In this document: piece by piece, positions 5,046-12,117 of the stretch
How positions within the stretch are numbered: the first letter of the stretch is position 1
Layout: every line of letters starts with the position of its first letter
Assembly: GCF_036346105.1 (NCBI RefSeq)
Contig: NZ_CP107811.1
Coordinates: forward strand, 4,979,501 to 5,043,500
From: Streptomyces sp. NBC_00539
GTDB lineage: Bacteria > Actinomycetota > Actinomycetes > Streptomycetales > Streptomycetaceae
Reading direction: 5' to 3'
DNA length: 64,000 bases
Notes under the pieces: model-generated
The model's input: only the letters and a program-made list of their open reading frames with translations
The model's database searches: none
Told to the model about the DNA's origin: nothing
Position numbers and translations under genes: made by a program

Positions 5046-5398
5046 GGTGGTGAAGTCTCGCTTCCGTTTGTGTATGTGTGCGCTGCGGTCGCGTCAGGGT
5101 CGCCGGCCGCTCCGCAGCGATCGTATTCGGGCGCGGCGGCACCCGGAAACGAGCCTACGCGTACGCGGTCGTCCGTACGTCACTCGAAGGTTTGGCAAGT
5201 TGTTCGACGGGACCACTGACAGGTTCACCCATCTGTGGTCTCTGTTCCAGGTTTGCGCTTTAGACCTGACGAGGTCCTAGAGACTCGACCCACTCTCGCA
5301 AGGGGGCGTGGGGTCCCTTTGCATGATTTCCACAGAGCCTCCCCGGTCGGCCGTCCGCCATGGCCGTCGCCGAGGGAGCCTGCGGGGGGAAGGCCGAA
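5046..5398. promoter_or_regulatory. Divergent intergenic region pepA / exopolysaccharide cluster
   Basis: 353 bp without a plausible gene. It must hold the promoters for pepA (minus) and for the five-gene polysaccharide cluster (plus). Two inverted repeats stand out: GACCAC (5211-5216) with GTGGTC (5235-5240), and a compact GACCT-GACG-AGGTC at 5263-5276. Either could be an operator or a leader hairpin of the plus-strand cluster. No convincing -35/-10 pair could be fixed by eye. Confidence 0.45.
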
Positions 5399-7432
5399 AT
5401 GGTCAGCAAGAGCAAGAACCGGATGAACAGGCTCGCGGCGGCGATGGCCGCGACAGCGCTGATGTCCGTGGCGGTGCCCGCGGCGACCGCCCAGGCGGCC
5501 ACCGTCGTACCGCGCATCGACCTGAGGGTGCTGGTCGTCGACGACGGCGGCAGCTCGGTCGCGGCGATCACCGCCGAACTCCGGGACACCGGAGTCCCCT
5601 ACACCCGCGTCGACCTGGGCAGCAGCAGCCGCCCGGTCATCGACGCGGCCTTCCTGAGCGACACCGTCGACGGCCGGCCGCGCGCCAAGTTCCAGGGTGT
5701 CGTCCTGCCCAACGAGAACCCCTTCGGCGCGGGTTCCGCCGAGTCCGCCGCGCTCACCGCCTACGAGACGGCGTACGGCATCCGCCAGGTGGACGCCTAC
5801 ACCTGGGCGCACCCCGAAGTCGGCCTGGAATACACCGACAACGGCGGCTACGGCGGCACCCTCGACGGCACCCAGGCGGCCGTCACCGCAGCGGGCAAGG
5901 CCGGCCCGTTCGGCTACCTCGGGGGACTGGTCGCCTTCGAGGACAACTCGCCGCTGATCCCGGAGAGCTACGGGTTCATCGCCAAGCCCCGCACCGGCTA
6001 CACCAGCTACCTCGACGCCCCCGTCGGATCGGGACGCGCCTCGCTGCTCGGCGAGTACGCCCACGACGGGCGCAGCGAACTGGTCGTCACCTTCGGCTAC
6101 AACCAGTACCAGCAGCAGTTCCGGCTGCTGGCCCGGGGCATCGTCGAATGGCTGACCCAGGGCGTCCACCTCGGCCAGGAGCGCAACTACTTCGCCGTCC
6201 ACGTCGACGACGTCTTCGCCCCGGACGCCCGCTGGGACCGGGCCCTCAACTGCACGCCGGGCGACTACGCCTGCGCGGGCGGCGAGGGCAAGGAGAGCAC
6301 CATCCGGATGAGCGCTGCCGACGCCCAGTACGCGGTGCAGTGGCAGAAGAGCAAGAACTTCAAGCTCGACATGCTCTTCAACGCCGGCGCCGGGGAGGAG
6401 TGGAAGACGGAGAACGGCGGCACCGACGCCCTGACCGCACAGCTCGTCGCCGACCGGGCCCAGTTCCGCTGGATGAACCACACCTACACCCACCCCTTCC
6501 TCGGCTGCGTCCAGGACGTCACCACCGTCCCCTGGACCTGCACGAAGAACGCCCAGGGCGCCATCAACTGGATGAGCCGCGCCGACATCTCCGCCCAGAT
6601 CCGCGACAACAACAACTGGGCCGCCTCCAAGGGCATCACCACCGACCGCTCCGAGATCGTCACCGGCGAGCACTCCGGCCTCAAGACCCTGCCGCAGCAG
6701 ACGGTCGACAACCCGAACCTGGCGGGCGCTTTCGCCGACAACGGGATCAAGTGGGCCGGCAGCGACAGCTCGCGCGAGCCCGGGCAGCGCGCGGTCGGCG
6801 CCGCCCTGACCGTCCCCCGCTACCCGATGAACGTGTACTACAACACGGGCACCAACGCGGAGATGGCCGACGAGTACAACTGGATCTACACCAGCCGCGC
6901 CCAGGGCGGCAGCGGCGCCTGCGAGGACAACCCGGCGACCTCCACCTGCCTGCCCGCGCCGCTCGACGCCGCCACCGGCTACCTCGACTACATCGTCCCC
7001 GCCGAGGCCCGCACCGCCCTGCGCCACGTCCTGAACAACGACCCGCGCCCGCACTACGTCCACCAGTCCAACCTCGCCGAGGACCGCACCCTCTACCCGG
7101 TCCTCAACCAGGTCCTCGACACCTACCGCACCCTGTACGCCCCCAGCGCCCCGCTCGTGAACCAGAGCATGAAGGACAGCGGCGTCGAGCTCGGCCGCCG
7201 CGCCGCCTGGGACGCCGCCCTCGCCGCCAACAAGGTCACCGCCTACCGCATCGGCAAGGACGTCACCGTCAAGGCGCCCTCGGGCGTGGTCGCACCCGTC
7301 ACGGCGCCCGCCGGGACCAAGAAGCAGCTCCTGCTCGGCACCGCGGACTTCGGCACCGCGTACGCCGGCACCCGCTCCGCGTGGACGTCCCCGGAGCTCC
7401 TCCAGTCGGCGGTCACGCTCAAGCTGGCCTGA
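5399..7432 (+). CDS. Secreted Agd3-like polysaccharide deacetylase (CE18-like)
   Basis: 677-aa exported protein. A basic N-terminus, hydrophobic core and AQA cleavage site near residue 34 form a Sec signal peptide. Two metal-site motifs of NodB-type de-N-acetylases are visible: HVDDVF at 268-273 (metal-binding Asp) and HTYTHP at 361-366 (the HxxxH pair). The layout, a roughly 230-residue N-terminal region before a central deacetylase domain, resembles Agd3 of Aspergillus fumigatus, the CE18 enzyme that deacetylates GalNAc in galactosaminogalactan. The ATG at 5399 follows GGGGGAAGG; an earlier in-frame start at 5360 would add 13 residues ahead of the signal peptide. It leads a five-gene set with a PelF-like transferase and GH135 and GH114 hydrolases, so it probably deacetylates the exported hexosamine polymer. 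The fold assignment is by motif and context. Confidence 0.78.
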   Translation: MVSKSKNRMNRLAAAMAATALMSVAVPAATAQAATVVPRIDLRVLVVDDGGSSVAAITAELRDTGVPYTRVDLGSSSRPVIDAAFLSDTVDGRPRAKFQGVVLPNENPFGAGSAESAALTAYETAYGIRQVDAYTWAHPEVGLEYTDNGGYGGTLDGTQAAVTAAGKAGPFGYLGGLVAFEDNSPLIPESYGFIAKPRTGYTSYLDAPVGSGRASLLGEYAHDGRSELVVTFGYNQYQQQFRLLARGIVEWLTQGVHLGQERNYFAVHVDDVFAPDARWDRALNCTPGDYACAGGEGKESTIRMSAADAQYAVQWQKSKNFKLDMLFNAGAGEEWKTENGGTDALTAQLVADRAQFRWMNHTYTHPFLGCVQDVTTVPWTCTKNAQGAINWMSRADISAQIRDNNNWAASKGITTDRSEIVTGEHSGLKTLPQQTVDNPNLAGAFADNGIKWAGSDSSREPGQRAVGAALTVPRYPMNVYYNTGTNAEMADEYNWIYTSRAQGGSGACEDNPATSTCLPAPLDAATGYLDYIVPAEARTALRHVLNNDPRPHYVHQSNLAEDRTLYPVLNQVLDTYRTLYAPSAPLVNQSMKDSGVELGRRAAWDAALAANKVTAYRIGKDVTVKAPSGVVAPVTAPAGTKKQLLLGTADFGTAYAGTRSAWTSPELLQSAVTLKLA

Positions 7433-7557
7433 CGGCCGCCCCGGCCGTACGCCCGGCCGGAACCGCTCCACTCACCCGCGTACGCAGCATCACCTTGCGC
7501 CGGCGCTCCGCGAACCACGGGCGCCGGCCCCTTTTCCGTCCTGGGGGGACACACCGC

Positions 7558-9072
7558 ATGAGCCATGGGCGTCACGTCACCATGCTCACCGAAGGCACCT
7601 ACCCGCACGTCCACGGGGGCGTCAGCACCTGGTGCGACCAGCTGGTCCGGGGAATGCCGGAGGTCGACTTCAACGTCATAGCCCTGACCGGCTCCGGACG
7701 CGAGCCGGTCACCTGGGAACTGCCCCGCAACGTCTACCGGCACACCGCCGTGCCGCTCTGGGGCCCGCCGCCGCCCCGCACGCTCCGCGCGGCCCTGCGC
7801 GGCAAGGCCCGGCGCCGCTTCACCGACACCTACGAAGCCTTCCTGCTGTCGATGCTCGACCCCGCGCGCGGCGGATTCTCCGAAGCCCTGCGCGAACTGG
7901 CCCTGCTGGCCCGCTCCGGCCGCCTCGCCCCCGCCCTGCGCTCCGAGTCCGTCCTGCGGCTGCTGATGGACCTGTGGACCCGCCCGGGCACGGGCACCGC
8001 CGCGGCCGAGCCCACCATCCACGACGCGCTGACCGCCACCGACCTGCTGGAACACGCGCTGCGCCCGCTCGGGGTCCGCATCCCGCGCGACAGCGTCTCC
8101 CACGCCGTCAGCAGCGGCCTCGCCACCTTGCCGGCGCTCGCCGCGAAACACCTCGACCAGGTGCCCTTCCTGCTCACCGAGCACGGCATCTACCTGCGCG
8201 AGCGCTACCTCGGCTACCGCACCGCCGAACAACGCTGGCCGGTCAAGGCCCTCCTGCTCGGCTTCTACCGGGAGCTGAACACCGAGGGCTACCGGCAGGC
8301 CGACCTGATCACCCCCTGCAACCAGTACAACCGCCGCTGGGAAGAGCGCGGAGGCGCCGCCTCCGACCGCATCCGCACCGTCTACAACGGCGTCGACCCG
8401 CACGCCTTCCCCGAGGCCGGCCCCGAACCCGAGGTGCCCACCCTCAGCTGGTGCGGCCGCGTCGACCCCATCAAGGACCTCGAAACCCTCATCCGCGCCT
8501 ACGCGTTCATGCGACAGGAGATCCCCGCCCTGCGGTTGCGCCTCTTCGGCCCGGTCCCGGCCGGCTGCGAGGACTACAAGCTGCGCCTGGAGAAGCTCGC
8601 CGCCGAAATCGGGGTGTCCGACGGCGTCACCTTCGAGGGCCGCATCGCGCAGGTCGCCCAGGCCTACGCGGCCGGCTCGGTCGTCATGCTCTCCTCCATC
8701 AGCGAGGGCTTCCCGTTCAGCATCATCGAAGCCATGTCCTGCGGCCGCACCACCGTCTCCACCGACGTCGGCGGAGTGCGCGAGGCCGTCGGCGACACCG
8801 GGCTGGTCGTCCCGCCCCGCGAACCCGAGACCATGGCACGCGCCACCCTCGCCCTGCTCCGCGACGACGTGCGCCGCGCCGAACTCGGCCGGCTGTCCCG
8901 CAAACGGGTCGTGGAGAAGTTCACCCTCCACCAGTCCGTGGACGGGTTCCGCCACATCTACCGGGAACTCGCGGGCCAGCCCGTCCTGCCGGTCCACCCG
9001 GGCGACGACTGGACCCAGCGCCTGGCCGACCCCTGGTACCGGGAGCTCGCCGCCGAAGGGAACCCGTGGTGA
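7558..9072 (+). CDS. pelF: PelF-like family 4 glycosyltransferase
   Basis: 504-aa cytoplasmic GT-B glycosyltransferase, close in length to PelF of Pseudomonas. The N-terminus has the PelF-type signature TEGTYPHVHGGVSTW (residues 11-25). The C-terminal nucleotide-sugar domain contains the VDPIKD segment (Lys306) and the GT4 E-x7-E motif (Glu383, Glu391). The ATG at 7558 is preceded by a GGGGGGA ribosome binding site. PelF polymerises a hexosamine (GalNAc/GlcNAc-type) chain in Pel synthesis; the donor here is inferred, not shown. The stop overlaps the start of the next gene by 4 bp, so the membrane protein is probably its partner in polymerisation and export. A longer reading frame runs upstream to 5308, but it only shadows the deacetylase gene in another frame. 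Confidence 0.85.
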   Translation: MSHGRHVTMLTEGTYPHVHGGVSTWCDQLVRGMPEVDFNVIALTGSGREPVTWELPRNVYRHTAVPLWGPPPPRTLRAALRGKARRRFTDTYEAFLLSMLDPARGGFSEALRELALLARSGRLAPALRSESVLRLLMDLWTRPGTGTAAAEPTIHDALTATDLLEHALRPLGVRIPRDSVSHAVSSGLATLPALAAKHLDQVPFLLTEHGIYLRERYLGYRTAEQRWPVKALLLGFYRELNTEGYRQADLITPCNQYNRRWEERGGAASDRIRTVYNGVDPHAFPEAGPEPEVPTLSWCGRVDPIKDLETLIRAYAFMRQEIPALRLRLFGPVPAGCEDYKLRLEKLAAEIGVSDGVTFEGRIAQVAQAYAAGSVVMLSSISEGFPFSIIEAMSCGRTTVSTDVGGVREAVGDTGLVVPPREPETMARATLALLRDDVRRAELGRLSRKRVVEKFTLHQSVDGFRHIYRELAGQPVLPVHPGDDWTQRLADPWYRELAAEGNPW

Positions 9073-10595
9073 GCGGATCCCTGTGGCTCAAAGTGCCCGG
9101 CGGCAACACCCTGCCCGCCATCCCCCGCCCCCGGCGGACGGCCACGGCCGCCGCCGACCCGATGGATGAACTCGTCGAACGCTTCGACGAGTTCATCGCC
9201 GCCGCCGTCCATCCCGACGAGATCGCCGCCATCCTCGAATCCGACGGGATGAACGATGAGTACATCCGCCTGACCTACGGCCGCCACGACTCCTTCGCGC
9301 TCGCGGAGGAGCTCTACGCCCGGGTGCCCCGCTCCTTCCCCGAGCCCCGCAGCACCCCCGACCCCTGGAAGGTCTCCCTCACCGCCTGCCTCCTGCGCGG
9401 GGTGATCTTCGCCCTGCCCGGCCTCGCCTACCTGCTCGGCGCCCCCCTGCTGGAAGGGCCGCCGGACCGGCTCGGCCTGCCCGCCGGGACGCTCACCCTG
9501 CTCGCCGGCGCCCTGATCGGCTGGGTGTGGGACCAGACCCTGTCCCACCGGGCCTACTCCTGGCTCGGCCTCGGCGACCGGGCCGCCGCCGGGCGGACCC
9601 TGCTCGCCGGGGCCCCCGCCGGGGCACTGCTGGGCACCGCCGCCGCCCTGGCGGTGCCCGGCGGGCCGCCGTTCTCCTACGCGTTCGCCGCCGGGCAGGC
9701 GCTGTACGTCGGCGCGGCCACCGTCCTGCTGGTCCTCGGCCGGGAGCGGGTGCTGCTCGCCGCGCTCGCCCCGATGGCCGCCGGGGCGGTGCTCGTCCTC
9801 TTCACCGACCTGCCCGTCAGGGTGCGGGTGACCCTGCTGGTGGTGTCCCTGCTGGCCGCCTGCGCCCTGGCCGTACGCGAACTGCCGCTGGCCGAGGGGG
9901 TACGGGCCCTCGCCGGGCGGGTCCGGGAGCGGACGCGGGCCCGCCCGGGCGGGGGCCCCGTGCGGTGGCGGATGCTGCGCGGCGCCGAGGAGGAGTACGC
10001 GCCGCGCGGGCCCCGGCTCGCGGACTCCGTGCCGTACGGCGTCTTCGGCCTGGGCACCGGGCTGCTCGTGCTGTACGCGGCTCTGGGGGAGGTGCTCGCC
10101 GGGGGGCCCGCCGAGGCGGTCGCCGCGCCCTCGGCGGTGGCCCTCACCCTCAGCATGGGCCCCGCCGAATGGCTGCTGCACCGGTTCCGCAGCGGCAGCC
10201 TCGCCGGGCTGCGGGCCGCCCGCTCGCCCCGGGCGTTCCGGCGCCGGATGCTGGTCACCCTGGCCCGCTGCCTGGCCCGGTACCTGGCGGTGCTGCTGGC
10301 GCTGGGCGTGAGCGGGACCCTGCTGTGGCCCGGCGCTCCCACCCTGACCGGGGCGCGGGCGGCGACGCTGCTGCTGCTGGGCGCCGTCATGTGGACGGGG
10401 CTGCTGCTCCAGTCCTTCGGGGCGGTCCGGCCCGCCGCGGTGGTCTGCGCCTCGGCGGCGTTCGTGCAGAGCCTGGCCGTGCTGACCGGTTCCGGGCCGC
10501 CGCGGCTGGTGCAGTTGGCGGTGGCGGGCGCGGCCGCGGCCGCCCTGGCCACCCTGGTCTGCCTGCTGCTGGGCCGCGCGACGGCCCACCGCTGA
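9069..10595 (+). CDS. Polytopic membrane protein, candidate polysaccharide exporter
   Basis: 508 residues starting at a GTG that overlaps the preceding stop (GTGA). The first 110 residues are soluble and charged, with conserved-looking acidic and aromatic stretches (DEYIRLTYGRHDS). About 11-12 hydrophobic segments follow, split by a basic loop near the middle. I do not recognise a family by sequence. The number of segments and the tight coupling to a PelF-like transferase recall PelG, the 12-segment Pel inner-membrane transporter. They also recall fungal Gt4C, in which a GT4 domain and a large membrane region are one protein. The exporter role is inferred from context. No ABC ATPase or flippase partner lies nearby. 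Confidence 0.75.
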   Translation: MSGSLWLKVPGGNTLPAIPRPRRTATAAADPMDELVERFDEFIAAAVHPDEIAAILESDGMNDEYIRLTYGRHDSFALAEELYARVPRSFPEPRSTPDPWKVSLTACLLRGVIFALPGLAYLLGAPLLEGPPDRLGLPAGTLTLLAGALIGWVWDQTLSHRAYSWLGLGDRAAAGRTLLAGAPAGALLGTAAALAVPGGPPFSYAFAAGQALYVGAATVLLVLGRERVLLAALAPMAAGAVLVLFTDLPVRVRVTLLVVSLLAACALAVRELPLAEGVRALAGRVRERTRARPGGGPVRWRMLRGAEEEYAPRGPRLADSVPYGVFGLGTGLLVLYAALGEVLAGGPAEAVAAPSAVALTLSMGPAEWLLHRFRSGSLAGLRAARSPRAFRRRMLVTLARCLARYLAVLLALGVSGTLLWPGAPTLTGARAATLLLLGAVMWTGLLLQSFGAVRPAAVVCASAAFVQSLAVLTGSGPPRLVQLAVAGAAAAALATLVCLLLGRATAHR

Positions 10596-10636
10596 CGCAC
10601 GTGCCCCCGTACGAGACGCACAAGAAGAAGGACCTC

Positions 10637-11287
10637 ATGCTGCTGGTGCCCCTCTACGAGCACCCCGCCGACCGGCCCGAGGCGTGGGAGCTGCTCATCG
10701 CCTCGGCCGGCCGGCTGCATTCGGTGGTGCTCAACCCCGACAGCGGGCCGGGCGCGGCCCCCGACGAACGGTTCGCCGCGGTCGCCGGGCGGCTGCGGGC
10801 CGCCGGGGTGCCCGTCCTGGGGTACACCGACACCGACTACGGGCGCCGCCCGCACGCGGCCGTCGTCCAGGACCTGCTGCGCCACCGCGACTGGTACGCC
10901 ACCGACGGCGCCTTCCTCGACCAGGCCTCCGCGGAGCCGGGACTCCTGCCGCACTACGGCCGGCTCGCCGTCGCCGCCCGGGCGGCCGGCGCCCGCACCC
11001 TCGTCCTGAACCACGGCGTCCACCCGCACCCCGGGTACGCCGCGCTCGCCGACCTGCTCGTCACCTTCGAGGGTCCCTGGGACGCGTACCGCGACGCGGG
11101 AGCCGCCCCGGGGTGGACCGCCGACCACCCCGCCCAGCGGTTCTGCCACCTCGTGTACGCCGTCCCGCCGGGCGCCCCGGCCGCCGAACTCGCCCTGGAG
11201 CGAGGGGCCGCCGTGCACTGCGCGGTCCCCGGCACCGGCGCGCACCCGTGGGGAACCCTGCCGTACGCCCTGGAGGCCACCGCATGA
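10637..11287 (+). CDS. Spherulin-4 / Sph3-like glycoside hydrolase (GH135 type)
   Basis: 216-aa protein of the spherulation-specific family 4. Family landmarks are visible in order: the VPLYEHP strand at the N-terminus, VLNPDSGPG, LGYTDTDYGRR, and WYATDGAFLDQ with the acidic residues at the strand end of a TIM-like barrel. In Aspergillus the homologue Sph3 is an endo-acting hydrolase needed for galactosaminogalactan production. The ATG at 10637 is preceded by AAGAAGGA; a GTG at 10601 in the same frame has no such site. No signal peptide or membrane anchor is visible from either start, unlike fungal Sph3, so the compartment is unclear. The stop overlaps the next start (ATGA). Confidence 0.82.
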   Translation: MLLVPLYEHPADRPEAWELLIASAGRLHSVVLNPDSGPGAAPDERFAAVAGRLRAAGVPVLGYTDTDYGRRPHAAVVQDLLRHRDWYATDGAFLDQASAEPGLLPHYGRLAVAARAAGARTLVLNHGVHPHPGYAALADLLVTFEGPWDAYRDAGAAPGWTADHPAQRFCHLVYAVPPGAPAAELALERGAAVHCAVPGTGAHPWGTLPYALEATA

Positions 11288-12117
11288 GGCGCCGCGCGCT
11301 GCCCTGGCTGCTCGTCGGCCCGCTCCTGCTCCTGGCCTCCTGCACGTCCGTGCCCGAGTCGCCGGAACCCGACGACCTGTCGCCCGACCCGGCGCCCGGG
11401 CAGCGCTGGCAGCCCGCGCCGCAGGTGAGCTGGCAGTGGCAGCTGACCGGCGCGCTCGATGCCTCCGTGAAGGCGGCCGTGTACGACGTCGACGGCTTCA
11501 ACACCTCCAAGGAGCAGGTGGCCGCCTTGAAGAAGGCCGGCCGCAAGACGATCTGCTACCTCTCCACCGGAGCCTGGGAGGACTTCCGTCCCGACGCCGC
11601 CGACTTCCCGAAGGAACTGCTGGGCAAGGGCAACGGCTGGGAGGGCGAGCGCTGGCTGGACATCCGGCGCTCGGCCGAACTGGAACCGCTGATGGCCAAG
11701 CGGTTCGACATGTGCAAGGCCAAGGGCTTCGACGCGATCGAGCCGGACAACATGGACGGGTACGCCAACTCGTCCGGGTTCCCGCTCACCGCCGCCGACC
11801 AGCTGGCCTACAACCGGCTGATCGCGAAGCTCGCGCACGACCGGGGACTGTCGGTCGGGCTCAAGAACGACCTGGACCAGATCCCCGACCTCGTCGGTGA
11901 CTTCGAGTTCGCCGTCAACGAGCAGTGCGCCCAGTACGAGGAGTGCGAGCGGTACCGGCCGTTCGTCGCGGCCGGGAAGGCCGTCTTCCACGTCGAGTAC
12001 GAGGGCCGGCTGCGCGAGTGGTGCCCCGTCTCGCAGCGGGAGAAGCTCAGCTCGCTCCAGAAGAAGACCGACCTGGACGCCTGGCGCCGCTGGTGCCCGC
12101 CGAGGGGCGAGCCTTAG
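11284..12117 (+). CDS. GH114 endo-alpha-1,4-polygalactosaminidase-like lipoprotein
   Basis: 277-aa lipoprotein. The N-terminus is basic-hydrophobic and ends in the lipobox LASC (Cys about residue 20). The mature part begins with the GH114 pattern: WQWQLTG, then a strand ending YDVDGFN, then ICYLSTGAWE, WLDIR and the strand-end motif EPDNMDGY, followed by LKNDL and NEQC. These belong to the TIM-barrel family of bacterial endo-alpha-1,4-polygalactosaminidases and fungal Ega3, which cut galactosamine-rich polymers. It is the last gene of the polysaccharide set, overlapping the GH135 gene by 4 bp. Its position outside the membrane suggests it trims or releases the deacetylated polymer. A GC-rich hairpin follows. 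Confidence 0.87.
   Translation: MRRRALPWLLVGPLLLLASCTSVPESPEPDDLSPDPAPGQRWQPAPQVSWQWQLTGALDASVKAAVYDVDGFNTSKEQVAALKKAGRKTICYLSTGAWEDFRPDAADFPKELLGKGNGWEGERWLDIRRSAELEPLMAKRFDMCKAKGFDAIEPDNMDGYANSSGFPLTAADQLAYNRLIAKLAHDRGLSVGLKNDLDQIPDLVGDFEFAVNEQCAQYEECERYRPFVAAGKAVFHVEYEGRLREWCPVSQREKLSSLQKKTDLDAWRRWCPPRGEP

Follow-up and report, generated by a model that had tools for sequence, protein, structure and literature searches.

The DNA analyzed here (the window) is a stretch of 64,000 nucleotides from Streptomyces sp. NBC_00539, and our subject is a cluster of five open reading frames (ORFs) on its plus strand, at positions 5399-12117, which an earlier reading of the sequence alone had proposed to be an exopolysaccharide system combining parts of bacterial Pel and of the Aspergillus galactosaminogalactan (GAG) cluster (Table 1). 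The five ORFs, their strand and the 4-bp overlaps between genes 2 and 3 and between genes 4 and 5 were all confirmed on the sequence.

Table 1. Genes of the cluster, with positions in the window
Gene	Assignment	Position	Strand	Length (aa)	Features
1	Agd3/CE18-like polysaccharide N-deacetylase	5399..7432	+	677	Signal peptide by eye; candidate catalytic residues D270, D271, H361, H365, R474, H555
2	PelF-like GT4 glycosyltransferase	7558..9072	+	504	NF038011 and DUF3492 matches
3	Membrane protein	9069..10595	+	508	PelG-like by position and fold
4	Spherulin-4/GH135-like protein	10637..11287	+	216	PF12138 and Sph3 5c5g matches; no visible signal peptide; probable catalytic pair D95 and E145
5	GH114 endo-alpha-1,4-galactosaminidase-like lipoprotein	11284..12117	+	277	PF03537 and Ega3 6oj1 matches; lipobox LLASC by eye

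The five-gene cluster was confirmed as real and conserved. We compared 59 clusters, consisting of the window and 58 loci fetched around the membrane-protein gene, a selection under which the presence of the membrane protein itself is no test. The GT4 gene was found in all 59 clusters (split in L050), the spherulin-4 gene in 57, the CE18 gene in 56 and the GH114 gene in 45, while 41 clusters contained all five genes, with the gene order conserved. In 34 of the 59, which we call the long form, the membrane-protein and spherulin-4 genes are separated by three extra genes. None of these three is present in the remaining 25 clusters, that of the window among them, which make up the short form. A second set was selected by CE18 with a short-form query and comprised the best 80 of at least 540 relatives, 79 of them from Streptomyces. 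All five genes were present at 58 of these 80 loci, the other 22 including short contigs, and the long-form extra genes were found at none, as expected with a short-form query. The complete set is likewise present at L116 and L122, short-form loci of S. lavendulae CCM 3239 and S. virginiae. Both surveys bear out the proposal that the five genes belong together. Of 200 genomes sampled from the family, 110 have the membrane protein at an E value of 1e-20 and 153 at a looser 1e-5, which admits weaker matches, and a CE18 profile searched across the phylum matched 9 of 296 genomes, five of these outside the genus.

Profile searches and folds agree with the families named in the sequence-only reading, with a reservation for gene 1 that is taken up below. 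Gene 2 scored 170.1 bits over residues 7-468 against the NCBIfam equivalog profile NF038011 PelF (cut-off 100) and 192.9 bits against Pfam DUF3492. Gene 3, beside this PelF-like gene, begins with a helical part of about 95 residues, which is followed by a MOP/MATE-fold domain, PelG also being a member of the MOP superfamily; its fold matches include the MOP-fold proteins MurJ and WzxE, and a profile of the membrane protein gave no matches to Protein Data Bank (PDB) chains. The product of gene 1 has the three-domain fold of Agd3 (CBM87, CE and a beta-rich C-terminal domain) and all of the CE18 motifs (Asp-Asp, HxxxH, Arg and His), whose residues in Table 1 are invariant across 32 sequences. The roles of the Agd3 catalytic residues are described in PMC7229062 (Bamford et al. 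2020), and we infer the pairing of the gene 1 residues with the Agd3 residue numbers. Of the 56 CE18 copies, 55 have all four motifs; the one that does not, in L068, is a piece of 86 residues.

Gene 5 scored 287.7 bits against PF03537 and matched the Ega3 structure 6oj1 with an E value of 2.7e-57, and its D155 and E213 align with D189 and E247 of Ega3, so that both the GH114 profile and the catalytic pair are found. Gene 4 remains within GH135, with 102 bits against PF12138 (Spherulin4; cut-off 30.2) and homology to the Sph3 structure 5c5g (E value 7.9e-9). Its E145 aligns with Sph3 Glu222, and its D95 with the Asp of the Sph3 FFDE motif, which is residue 166 by count on the alignment. The catalytic pair of Sph3 is named in PMC12054363 as Asp196 and Glu222, and Asp196 as printed there is not kept in gene 4. 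Since the barrel position of the FFDE Asp aligns with Ega3 Asp189, we read it as the nucleophile and, from the alignments, as the residue probably meant by Asp196. This Asp and the Glu at the Glu222 position are both kept in all 57 operon copies, with the residue after the Asp being Q in 48 and R in nine. On this reading of the Asp, the possibility that gene 4 encodes a dead enzyme, with the DE of Sph3 changed to DQ, was rejected, the Glu222 counterpart being retained together with the Asp of the DE.

Fungal Sph3 is a secreted enzyme. In the window copy of the spherulin-4 protein, the N-terminus is short and polar. In a survey of 56 copies (the 57 operon copies less L082), made by hydropathy and spacing, the upstream stop of 40 lies too close to the spherulin-4 domain to leave space for 15 residues, and the remaining 16 reached at most a mean hydropathy of 1.32 over 12 residues (two being too short to score), as compared with 1.96 for the CE18 and 2.38 for the GH114 N-terminus of the window. 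By this measure the operon copies do not have the secretion features expected of an Sph3-type GH135 enzyme, and since no signal peptide is visible, the operon spherulin-4 protein is probably cytosolic. The role that the sequence-only reading had given it, trimming of the exported polymer, is doubtful on the same ground. Elsewhere in the NBC_00539 genome, a stand-alone spherulin-4 gene (L032, C1 ~6.0537-6.0544 Mb) has by eye a hydrophobic, lipobox-like N-terminus, unlike the operon copy.

The lack of a visible signal peptide on this protein also counts against the idea that the cluster attacks foreign fungal or bacterial GAG or Pel, with the glycosyltransferase (GT) and membrane protein being incidental. 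One unit with two hydrolase-type proteins and a deacetylase would suit such a role, but the GT is present in every one of the 59 clusters and its gene overlaps the membrane-protein gene by 4 bp in the window, and the window GH114 protein is a lipoprotein by its lipobox and so not freely released. We regard this explanation as very improbable.

We consider it likely that the five genes are transcribed as a single unit and produce a hexosamine exopolysaccharide that is synthase-dependent and partly de-N-acetylated, which would make the system a one-membrane relative of Pel and of Aspergillus GAG. From the families, folds, conserved catalytic residues, co-occurrence and spherulin-4 N-termini computed here, we infer the single transcription unit, the catalytic steps, the docking and the sugar. 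The PelF-like GT4 would polymerize a nucleoside diphosphate (NDP)-N-acetylhexosamine in the cytosol, and the MOP-fold membrane protein would move the chain across the membrane in the role of PelG, perhaps docked via its N-terminal part. The secreted CE18-like enzyme would then strip acetyl groups to give a cationic, adhesive polymer, and the GH114 lipoprotein on the outer face would cut deacetylated stretches, Ega3 being specific for deacetylated GAG (PMC7229062). The GH135-like protein probably works from the cytosolic side, where its targets would be chains that are nascent or misdirected. The gene set is compatible with the earlier proposal that a hexosamine polymer is made, deacetylated and cleaved.

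Two known systems invite comparison. The A. fumigatus GAG cluster (uge3, gtb3, agd3, ega3 and sph3; PMC4817252) shares the deacetylase, GH114, GH135 and GT functions with the window, but in the window the GT and membrane parts are two proteins, no epimerase gene is among the five, and the Sph3-like protein lacks a visible signal peptide. The Pel operon, including the Gram-positive pelDEA(DA)FG, likewise has a PelF-like GT4 beside a polytopic membrane protein, and a deacetylase (PMC7112168); it differs in that the window deacetylase is CE18-like rather than PelA and in that no PelG-profile match was found. None of the five window proteins matched the PelD or PelE families, the genome itself not having been searched for PelD. 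By analogy, export of a synthase-dependent N-acetylhexosamine (HexNAc) polymer followed by deacetylation outside the cell, as in Pel (PMC7112168) and GAG (PMC4817252), is the most economical reading.

The MOP fold also brings in a different product, since lipid-linked sugars are flipped by MurJ and WzxE. Instead of a free exopolysaccharide, the same enzymes might trim and charge a galactosamine glycopolymer bound to the cell wall, or a glycolipid. Low levels of galactosamine-containing polysaccharides in Streptomyces cell walls, cited in PMC7229062, would be in keeping with this. However, the combination of a PelF-type GT4 with CE18 and GH114 fits synthase-dependent secretion, and no ligase or lipid-carrier transferase family is found among the five proteins, leaving a wall-bound product improbable.

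With regard to the sugar, our confidence is only a little better than even that the short form uses UDP (uridine diphosphate)-N-acetylgalactosamine (GalNAc) supplied by housekeeping GalE. No UDP-sugar 4-epimerase (uge3) was found among the five proteins, and the NBC_00539 genome has two galE genes above the cut-off. GalNAc is favored in the short form because GH114, GH135 and CE18 have been characterized on galactosamine polymers, the former two according to PMC12054363, while Agd3 deacetylates alpha-1,4-GalNAc oligomers (PMC7229062). That the polymer is necessarily GalNAc, as had been supposed, is doubtful given that the long-form relatives carry a 6-deoxysugar-type pathway.

In L043, the one example profiled, the three extra genes of the long form encode a LegB-like 4,6-dehydratase, a sugar nucleotidyltransferase (NTP transferase) and an RmlD-like reductase. 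The LegB scored 449.6 bits against TIGR04180, just under the curated cut-off of 475, and all 34 LegB copies contain TSTSETYG, the Glu of which we take to be a mark of 4,6-dehydratases. Campylobacter LegB dehydrates GDP-GlcNAc (PMC7439481). Since the long form carries these three 6-deoxysugar-type genes, its polymer may contain a 6-deoxyhexosamine instead of GalNAc. Extended to the whole family, the same machinery would make a polymer that is not GalNAc-based but built of a 6-deoxyhexosamine such as N-acetylfucosamine (FucNAc, 6-deoxy-GalNAc) or N-acetylquinovosamine (QuiNAc), with the short form taking the same sugar from elsewhere or having switched to another HexNAc. The sub-threshold LegB score, the lack of the three genes in the window and the short-form clade, and the galactosamine polymers on which the characterized GH114 and GH135 enzymes act all speak against this extension, which we consider unlikely though well short of negligible.

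In order to place the two forms, a PelF tree of 63 sequences was examined (midpoint root, with long outer branches; L050 omitted for its split PelF). All 24 short-form rows fell on one side of one branch, with support of 89/89, which is under the starred level, and this group adjoins all of the long forms but one. The long-form L082 and L202, the latter from another family of the class and having a nucleotidyltransferase, a reductase and a weak LegB-type match, branch outside both groups, and for this reason loss of the extra genes by the short form seems the simpler reading. We also searched for LegB, at a threshold of E 1e-60, in 20 same-genus and five sister-genus genomes having the short form. 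Eleven of the 20 additionally contain a LegB with 80% or higher identity to the long-form query, two have only a distant one (54%), and seven, including NBC_00539 (best match 33% identity), have none at this threshold; in the sister genus, one genome has a distant LegB and four do not. In each of the 11 genomes LegB lies less than 2 kb from a second membrane-protein match, indicating that long and short clusters coexist in these genomes.

These relationships allow a tentative suggestion, which we think rather doubtful as a whole, that the Streptomycetaceae have sister GAG/Pel-like synthases, of which the long form, with its own 4,6-dehydratase/reductase pathway, makes a 6-deoxyhexosamine counterpart of GAG (deacetylated poly-FucNAc, for example), while in the short form this pathway was lost in a single event and the substrate changed, GH135 being intracellular in both. 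If so, one genome would be able to make two different cationic polymers, and Sph3-type enzymes would belong to synthesis rather than to extracellular trimming. The clusters allow two closely related synthases, which may differ in the sugar they use, to be compared in nature, and the role of Sph3-type enzymes in polymer synthesis to be studied in a tractable bacterial host.

Several observations weigh against a GAG/Pel-like exopolysaccharide system of the kind preferred here. The PelG profile (Pfam PF16933) matched nothing in the NBC_00539 genome, including the gene 3 product, and no polymer is known from this cluster. The 6-deoxysugar-type genes of 34 long-form relatives argue against GalNAc as the family-wide substrate. 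Gene 1 reached only 22.7 bits (E value 5.5e-5) with Pfam Agd3_CE, below the cut-off of 27.6, and PDB sequences yielded no match either to gene 1 by phmmer (E 0.01) or to a profile of 32 gene 1 relatives (E 0.1). The placement of gene 1 in CE18 therefore stands by fold and motifs and falls short by profile score, and "CE18-like" is the careful name. GH114 is absent from 14 of the 59 clusters and is thus dispensable, and by simple pattern matching the strict GH114 Glu pattern was found in only 31, and the lipobox pattern in 27, of its 45 copies.

The sequence-only reading had considered an actinobacterial cluster of this composition to be new or little studied, a view that is overtaken by PMC7229062, which reports that in 30 of 35 bacterial species agd3 lies within operons of carbohydrate enzymes or close to them. 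All of the operons encode a multi-spanning membrane protein and a cytoplasmic GT, GH114 is highly consistent, and spherulin-4 occurs in those of some Actinobacteria. These operons resemble the window in all of these parts in addition to CE18, and the window cluster is a further example of the bacterial clusters reported in 2020, with some details of its variants being new. The operon section of that paper makes no mention of a long/short split, of the membrane-protein fold or of the spherulin-4 location. Galactosamine polymers of Streptomyces are cited in its discussion, as is an endogalactosaminidase from S. griseus. No other Streptomyces study of this cluster was found by title among the open-licence PMC matches listed. 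Given its spread, a GAG/Pel-like polymer system is common in Streptomyces and its kin.

Variant clusters were also seen. Two other places in the NBC_00539 genome, L083 and L084, lie outside the 58-locus set, L084 having none of the queries. L083 (C1 ~2.589-2.594 Mb, minus strand) is a second, reduced cluster. It encodes a PelF-like GT (111.8 bits) and a membrane protein that is shorter and by eye has a similar motif at its N-terminus; an RmlD-like gene is also present, and the spherulin-4 copy has lost both probable catalytic residues. CE18 and GH114 were not found at this locus. Three sister-genus loci (L050, L052 and L073) have the GT, membrane protein, spherulin-4 and GH114 genes and no CE18 within the fetched 19 kb. 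In L204 and L205, from another family of the phylum, PelF-like and CE18-like genes are accompanied by a spherulin-4 gene that lies on the other strand. In a different actinobacterial variant, L206, the GH114 gene diverges from the CE18 gene, which is split over five ORF pieces, and a membrane protein and two PelF-like ORFs are present as well.

At the borders of the window cluster, the hairpin at which it had been said to end does not exceed shuffled sequence in stability (z 0.36) and a terminator-like site sought at the cluster end was not found, which together ruled out the hairpin as a terminator. Since the flanking genes lie on the minus strand (a peptidase M17, leucyl-aminopeptidase-type gene and a pyridine nucleotide-disulphide oxidoreductase upstream, and a FAD-binding monooxygenase-type gene downstream), the plus-strand unit consists of the five genes. 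An alternative upstream ATG at 5360 is possible for gene 1; the ATG at 5399 is preceded by a purine-rich stretch and agrees with the N-termini of the relatives.

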